From assembly GCA_024641985.1 (NCBI GenBank), contig JAHEBZ010000003.1, positions 124,001 to 188,000 of the forward strand: DNA of 64,000 bases. Reading direction: 5' to 3'. The translations under genes were made by a program, and so were the position numbers. How positions within the stretch are numbered: the first letter of the stretch is position 1; every line of letters starts with the position of its first letter. Of this stretch, positions 40,293-40,410 are shown in pieces. The notes beneath the pieces were generated by a model. The model made no database searches and had not been told where the DNA came from. It saw only the letters and a program-made list of their open reading frames with translations. The DNA comes from Rhodoluna sp. GTDB lineage: Bacteria > Actinomycetota > Actinomycetes > Actinomycetales > Microbacteriaceae.

Positions 40293-40298
40293 TAACCT
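40293..40298 (+). promoter_or_regulatory. Putative leaderless -10 element of the leuA leader
   Basis: TAACCT, then AAAAAC, then GTG 40305. Six-base gap, as at several other genes here, putting the transcription start on the GTG of the leader peptide. Confidence 0.5.
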
Positions 40299-40304
40299 AA
40301 AAAC

Positions 40305-40346
40305 GTGTTCTTCGGTCTCCTTCTTAGTGGCCGCGACGAGGCCTAA
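40305..40346 (+). CDS. leuL: leuA leader peptide (13 aa, three consecutive Leu codons)
   Basis: GTG start, then MFFGLLLSGRDEA and TAA. Leu codons CTC CTT CTT lie at 40317-40325 in the middle of the peptide, and the next-to-last part overlaps the 5' arm of a stable hairpin. This is the arrangement of a ribosome-mediated attenuator sensing charged tRNA-Leu. The short frame has no Shine-Dalgarno sequence but a -10-like TAACCT exactly six bases before the start, so it is probably leaderless. Too short for homology alone; the Leu run and location are the evidence. Confidence 0.7.
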   Translation: MFFGLLLSGRDEA

Positions 40347-40366
40347 ACCGGCCCTCCTCGTCGCGG
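40331..40366 (+). promoter_or_regulatory. Leader hairpin of the leuA attenuator
   Basis: Perfect 11-base stem CCGCGACGAGG / CCTCGTCGCGG with a 14-base loop. A ribosome waiting at the Leu codons (40317-40325) would cover the 5' arm and prevent the stem. No T-run follows, so the block could be Rho-dependent or act on leuA translation rather than be an intrinsic terminator. Confidence 0.65.
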
Positions 40367-40410
40367 AGCCTTCTGCTGGCTGACCACCTAAACACAAGGA
40401 AGACTTAATA

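Follow-up and report, generated by a model that had tools for sequence, protein, structure and literature searches.

Introduction

The closest described system is the LEU element (Seliverstov 2005, PMC1262725), which was found upstream of leuA in most of the Actinobacteria examined there. It comprises a leader ORF whose Leu codons pair with the Shine-Dalgarno (SD) sequence, together with a pseudoknot or alternative hairpin, and it has no terminator. The mechanism was left open, with a bound protein preferred over codon sensing. The effects of leader mutations in S. coelicolor (Craster 1999, as relayed in Seliverstov 2005, PMC1262725) do not fit classical attenuation.

Individual leuA leaders have also been described. 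The leader of S. lividans, LeuL1 (MRFGLLLLSCRGEGL), is leaderless and has no typical Rho-independent terminator according to PMC8079986, which cites further cases. C. glutamicum has a leuA leader (PMC4046766), and so does C. diphtheriae, where the start site could not be assigned (PMC5784534). The polycysteine uORFs of the mycobacterial cys operons (Canestrari 2020, as cited in PMC13236596) are likewise leaderless short ORFs rich in the amino acid that is sensed; their action is termed translation attenuation and concerns cysteine, not leucine. Attenuators of ilvB in Corynebacterium, Mycobacterium and Streptomyces carry branched-chain amino acid codons in their leaders, but they possess a terminator hairpin with a U-run (PMC1262725; PMC13236596), and none was found at the leuA gene studied here.

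We analysed a stretch of 64,000 nucleotides from Rhodoluna sp., hereafter the window, in which the region before leuA had been predicted to encode a Leu-rich leader peptide. This region belongs to the LEU element described in 2005. Like that element, it has a leader ORF that precedes leuA and contains a Leu run, complementarity between the Leu codons and the SD sequence, a two-helix pseudoknot between the leader and leuA (judged by the text of that paper), and no terminator. The text of PMC1262725 differs from our report in that it does not mention leaderless initiation and considers a bound protein likelier. It gives leuA and one transposase gene as the only contexts, and no leuC, leuB or LeuA-domain genes.

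LeuL1 of S. lividans shares with the window the pattern FGLLL(L)S.R.E, the position before leuA and the lack of a typical Rho-independent terminator. It differs in its length of 15 residues and its four consecutive Leu, in coming from another genus, and in having its start mapped by RNA-seq, whereas the window start is predicted (PMC8079986). The original prediction took the leaderless start and the missing terminator for the notable part of the locus. Both had already been reported for S. lividans leuA in PMC8079986, and the absence of a terminator is also in Seliverstov 2005 (PMC1262725). What goes beyond print is an exchange of regulatory codons on a shared scaffold, and a tiny ORF, both found in relatives.

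Results

The leader ORF and leuA in the window

The features of the locus are collected in Table 1. The -10-like hexamer stands directly behind the end of the upstream, era-like gene and exactly 6 nt before the GTG, as predicted. The 13-residue peptide can be read directly from the letters just before leuA, with the codons GTG TTC TTC GGT CTC CTT CTT AGT GGC CGC GAC GAG GCC TAA and the stop at 40344-40346. The predicted three Leu codons and perfect 11-bp hairpin are present, and the gap between them is 5 nt, not the 6 that had been claimed. Downstream of leuA, the window carries recO and an isoprenyl (undecaprenyl) diphosphate synthase gene at 42176-43683.

Table 1. Features of the leuA leader region (positions in the window)
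Feature	Position	Strand	Basis or remark
era-like GTPase with KH domain, gene upstream of the leader	39397..40287	+	ORF list; Pfam MMR_HSR1 and KH_2
Extended -10-like box TGC-TAACCT	40290..40298 (hexamer 40293-40298)	+	letters; conserved spacing
Leader ORF MFFGLLLSGRDEA followed by stop, GTG start, predicted leaderless	40305..40346	+	letters; conservation
P1 5' strand, Gly/Leu codons complementary to leuA SD region	40314..40322	+	duplex -9.3 kcal/mol
Putative regulatory Leu codons CTC CTT CTT	40317..40325	+	conserved Leu run
P2 hairpin 5' arm CCGCGACGAGG, inside leader ORF	40331..40341	+	compensatory changes; frame
Pseudoknot 5' strand CGGCC in P2 loop	40349..40353	+	equal-scoring register 40348-40352
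P2 hairpin 3' arm CCTCGTCGCGG	40356..40366	+	pairing, covariation
Pseudoknot 3' strand GGCUG	40378..40382	+	alternative register 40375-40379
P1 3' strand including Shine-Dalgarno AAGGAAG (40396-40402)	40396..40405	+	duplex with Leu-codon stretch
leuA, 2-isopropylmalate synthase, putative regulated gene, ATG at 40411	40411..42147	+	ORF list; Pfam, NCBIfam

A scan of 40150-40450 found no site resembling an intrinsic terminator, in agreement with the predicted lack of a T-run after the stem; the intrinsic terminator that a classical transcriptional attenuator has before its structural gene was thus not found in this interval. The same scan found no consensus sigma-70 -35/-10 promoter, so the evidence for the -10-like box comes from the conservation of its spacing. 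The stretch 40304-40425 folds with -45.9 kcal/mol, against -28.9 (sd 3.3) for shuffled sequences (z -5.2).

The leader is conserved upstream of leuA

Loci were gathered through LeuA, 30 from the window's genome and genus and 80 named loci from Rhodoluna, Microbacterium, Leucobacter, Agrococcus, Sinomonas, Promicromonospora, Brachybacterium and others, the two sets overlapping. Of these 110 loci, L029 lacks the leuA start and could not be assessed, leaving 109. A leader with a Leu run is present at 108 of the 109, in 94 distinct sequences; the 108 include L109, where the leader was seen although a later pattern read the wrong frame. The exception is L026, from the window's genus, where leuA lies about 10 nt behind the upstream gene and the leader is absent, an apparent loss of the element.

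The 94 distinct leaders start with ATG (56) or GTG (38). Where several in-frame starts were possible, the one with a TAnnnT box 6-9 nt upstream was chosen; on this basis the spacing from box to start is 6 nt in 86 leaders, 7 nt in 7 and 9 nt in 1. By comparison, among 3013 further codons of this kind at these loci, just 1 has TAnnnT at a distance of 6 nt. The conserved spacing predicts that the window leader is probably leaderless. Thirty-two more distant leuA-type leaders have spacings of 6-11 nt, and because the distance is 9-11 nt in 13 of them, transcripts at distant loci may begin a few bases ahead of the start codon. On this comparative evidence the leader is functional, and the earlier claim of a probably leaderless peptide with conserved Leu codons holds.

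The hairpin and a pseudoknot covary

Hairpin P2 has 11 of 11 pairs in the window and a loop of 14. Its 5' arm lies inside the leader ORF, and its reading frame relative to the leader is identical in 94/94 leuA leaders. We compared an alignment of 40 trimmed leuA elements (A1) and one of 53 diverse elements (A2). In A1, 96.4% of the P2 cells are paired, and in 4 of the 11 pairs both partners have changed. In A2, 96.9% are paired, and the cells with double changes number 38, against 11.9 in shuffles; sliding the partners abolishes the signal. Three of five covariation measures for P2 in A2 exceed all 500 shuffles. For P2 alone, the number of pairs with double changes is reached by 217/500 shuffles and that of further pair types by 70/500; for P2 and the pseudoknot together, in A1, the same measures are reached by 40/500 and 12/500. 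These statistics, and the pairing statistics below, ignore kinship among the elements. Upstream regions of leuA from Microbacteriaceae, whose alignment the original prediction had named as a check, conserve both the Leu codons and the covarying stem.

That prediction had overlooked a covarying pseudoknot between the P2 loop and a downstream stretch. In the window it has five pairs, one of them G-U, and in A1 its helix is 87.5% paired. The pairing persists while the letters change, as in GGGCC/GGCCC, CCGGGC/GCCCGG, CTAGC/GCTAG, CGACCGGC/GCCGGTCG and CGGTCGGC/GCCGACCG. When partners were permuted among elements, the mean score of the own partners was reached in 0/5000 permutations at each of three thinning levels (77, 56 and 34 leuA elements), and again in 0/5000 for the 53 elements of A2. 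Single pseudoknots are unremarkable, with shuffled letters equalling the own score in 20-22% of trials.

The Leu codons are complementary to the leuA Shine-Dalgarno sequence

Also overlooked had been the complementarity of the Leu-codon stretch to the leuA SD sequence (P1). Over 83 distinct pairs the duplex energy averages -9.08 kcal/mol for own partners and -7.77 for permuted partners, and 0/2000 permutations reach the own mean; in a few loci (e.g. L055, L081, L110) the leuA start is probably misplaced. Shuffled letters give means of -6.8 and -6.0 kcal/mol. In several congeners of the window's organism P1 is weak, at -2.1 to -5.6 kcal/mol (e.g. L003, L005-L007, L009, L010, L012).

The last Leu codon is CTT in 93/94 distinct leaders. 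With the window's genus group set aside, 61 leaders remain, from high-GC loci; CTT accounts for 147/220 of the Leu codons in these leaders, versus 1% in their leuA genes. This preference fits either a constraint from pairing, as CTY pairs with the SD sequence, or the use of a rare codon as sensor.

We read the region, with a probability of about 70%, as a LEU element in which a leaderless Leu-codon leader and a hairpin-pseudoknot RNA form a translational attenuator of leuA. The transcript would begin at the GTG or right beside it, and its 5' end would be loaded with a ribosome. With ample Leu-tRNA, the ribosome would pass the Leu codons, end in the P2 loop and leave; P2 and the pseudoknot would then fold, the Leu-codon stretch would pair with the leuA SD sequence, and leuA translation would be low. 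With scarce Leu-tRNA, the ribosome would stall on the Leu codons, where it covers the anti-SD stretch together with the lower portion of P2, and so set the SD sequence free. leuA translation is most likely switched on when leucine is short.

A stall was simulated for 92 elements by pseudoknot-free folding in which 30 nt around the last Leu codon were blocked. Mean SD openness rises from 0.25 to 0.40 with this block, compared with 0.24 for a block at the stop codon and 0.24 for one at the linker. Openness increases by more than 0.1 in 48/92 elements and decreases by more than 0.1 in 12/92. In the window it goes from 0.31 to 0.58, and in the near relative L003 from 0.43 to 0.26.

The original prediction had offered two routes, Rho or a block of leuA translation. 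The complementarity of the Leu-codon stretch to the SD sequence speaks for the second. A transcriptional device would need no intrinsic terminator if leader translation or stalling set the access of Rho, or the pausing of RNA polymerase, before leuA, with the pseudoknot as a pause or Rho-blocking element. The missing T-run after the stem agrees with such a device, and so does the distance of 142-666 nt between the end of the scaffold and leuB at the loci described below, over which direct masking of the leuB SD sequence is unlikely, though the tiny ORF there is nearer. A purely transcriptional device, however, has no need for Leu codons that match their own leuA SD sequence better than permuted ones, and we consider transcriptional control unlikely, though worth keeping in view.

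Distribution of the element

Two covariance models were used, R1 with the Leu codons and the scaffold, and R2 with the scaffold without the Leu codons, for other amino acids. R1 matches 182/196 genomes sampled within the class. Among 60 genomes sampled across the phylum it matches 5/5 class members and 1/55 others, the latter weakly (E 6e-4). Judged by these matches, the device seems to have arisen in the class. R2 matches fewer genomes (94/118). Its matches at L227-L229 (E 4e-4 to 4e-3) have no leader and no leuA, leuB or leuC downstream, and are probably false. In the window's own genome the R2 search returned the leuA element and its reverse strand (E 0.28), and no second element. Rfam 15 gave 0 matches at E<=1 for 39800-41000 of the window, and 0 at the gathering score for the loci of ten relatives.

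It might be supposed that a short ORF and a stable hairpin stand before leuA by chance and regulate nothing, and L026, a congener with leuA and no leader at all, would suit this view. Conservation, covariation and the matches across the class contradict it, and we find it hardly credible.

In the leuA genes of G069, G087, G114 and G127 and the leuC gene of G039, one in-frame stop (TGA; TAG in G127) lies within the aligned stretch or at its edge. It could reflect a sequencing error, a broken gene or recoding.

The same scaffold precedes other genes with other codons

In many genomes there is a second match away from leuA. Such matches were surveyed in 68 stretches and three loci from the search of class genomes. 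The scaffold was found before leuC (10 loci), further leuA-type genes (32, some of them distant), leuB (20) and genes resembling the LeuA domain (3). Outside these counts are L222, which has no clear leader frame and leuB 1.6 kb on, and L173, at a contig end.

The leuC loci (L114, L115, L119, L141, L143-L147, L176) come from other genera of the window's family. All ten genes are 84-100% identical in frame to that of L114, and all ten leaders contain LLL (e.g. MRRVVLLLSSRDETSF). R1 matched 0/20 leuC loci from congeners and the window's own organism, some of which had little DNA upstream, so this use does not apply to the window's genome.

On the leuB side the leaders differ, as in MLWSVRILSCRDEAR, MRSVFVLIDCRGEA and MRKQLVVIACRGGAS. 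Of the 20 counted, all have Ile, 19 have Val and none has LLL. In 19 of the 20 leuB was seen; the other, L153, was included with a leader of the leuB type and the tiny ORF, although its stretch contains no leuB. L226, with a leuB context and a leader (MARQLVILSSRGEFR) that fits too, is absent from the 20 since the arm pattern missed it; leuB itself is thus confirmed at 20 loci. After leuB a branched-chain aminotransferase gene follows in L157, and similar ORFs were seen by eye in L149, L152, L155 and L159.

At L208, L218 and L221 the scaffold, with Leu/Val codons, precedes genes for stand-alone proteins of 131-145 aa that resemble the allosteric domain of LeuA alone. Pfam LeuA_dimer (PF08502) scores above its cut-off in two of the three, and the third has no match.

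LLL occurs in 93/94 leaders of leuA, L016 being the exception, and in 29/32 of those before other leuA-type genes, where L205 and L209 have mixed codons instead. Ile or Val is found among the last five codons in 23/23 leaders on the side of leuB and the LeuA-domain genes, versus 15/136 elsewhere (Fisher p 5e-18, kinship ignored).

Such codon changes with the pathway step, on a constant scaffold, are predicted for a sensor that works by ribosome stalling, but not for a site at which a protein binds. According to the preference in Seliverstov 2005, a regulatory protein would bind the pseudoknot and the leader peptide would be incidental, for which the reading of the S. coelicolor mutants and a phyletic match with a DEAD-box helicase are adduced there (PMC1262725). 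The regulatory codons nevertheless vary with the downstream gene, P2 is locked to the leader frame and the spacing of start and box is conserved, none of which is expected if the peptide is untranslated. A binding protein is in our judgement quite improbable. The codon exchange argues for the sensing of tRNA by a translating ribosome.

A tiny ORF upstream of leuB

After the leader, 20 of the 21 leuB-side loci contain a tiny ORF with a conserved end, of the ALQEAMDRRDNGGETGH type or the WGPA...DDN type (L149, L151-L155, L157, L159, L201-L203, L206, L210, L212-L216, L219, L225). It is present in 19/20 loci with confirmed leuB and lacking in L226. From a start behind an SD-like stretch it measures about 20-50 aa, and it is longer from the farthest in-frame start. 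The search pattern, which was derived from this same leuB-side set, occurs in 0/32 leuA-type loci and 0/10 leuC loci. Seven peptides tested had no match in Pfam or NCBIfam.

We first assumed leuB to be the direct target. The tiny ORF comes first, however, and in 17/20 loci a separate TAnnnT box lies 5-9 nt ahead of a candidate leuB start. The separate box suggests that the leuB-side element may act directly on the tiny ORF, and perhaps not on leuB.

Discussion

Taken together with the occurrences in relatives, the LEU element may be seen as one use of a codon-programmable, leaderless or nearly leaderless attenuator platform of the class, a reading we hold to be rather probable. The hairpin-pseudoknot, locked in frame, would be its constant part, and the codons before it would be rewritten according to the downstream gene, with Leu for both leuA and leuC, Ile together with Val and Leu on the side of leuB-ilvE, where the leader is followed first by a tiny conserved ORF, and Leu/Val at the stand-alone genes like the LeuA allosteric domain. 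The charging of tRNA would be sensed through the translating ribosome and not by a bound protein, and the targets would include a family of very small proteins that is as yet undescribed. The literature searched, which covered few subscription papers, yielded no account of elements at leuC or on the leuB side.

Seliverstov 2005 did not settle the mechanism of the LEU element, and the exchange of codons on a constant scaffold provides natural evidence for codon sensing. Whether codons are sensed or a protein is bound becomes testable by simply exchanging codons. The element is widespread in the class and has no Rfam match in the window and ten relatives, so it can easily escape annotation. With its presence at leuC and on the leuB side, a single RNA device would govern several steps of the leucine branch.
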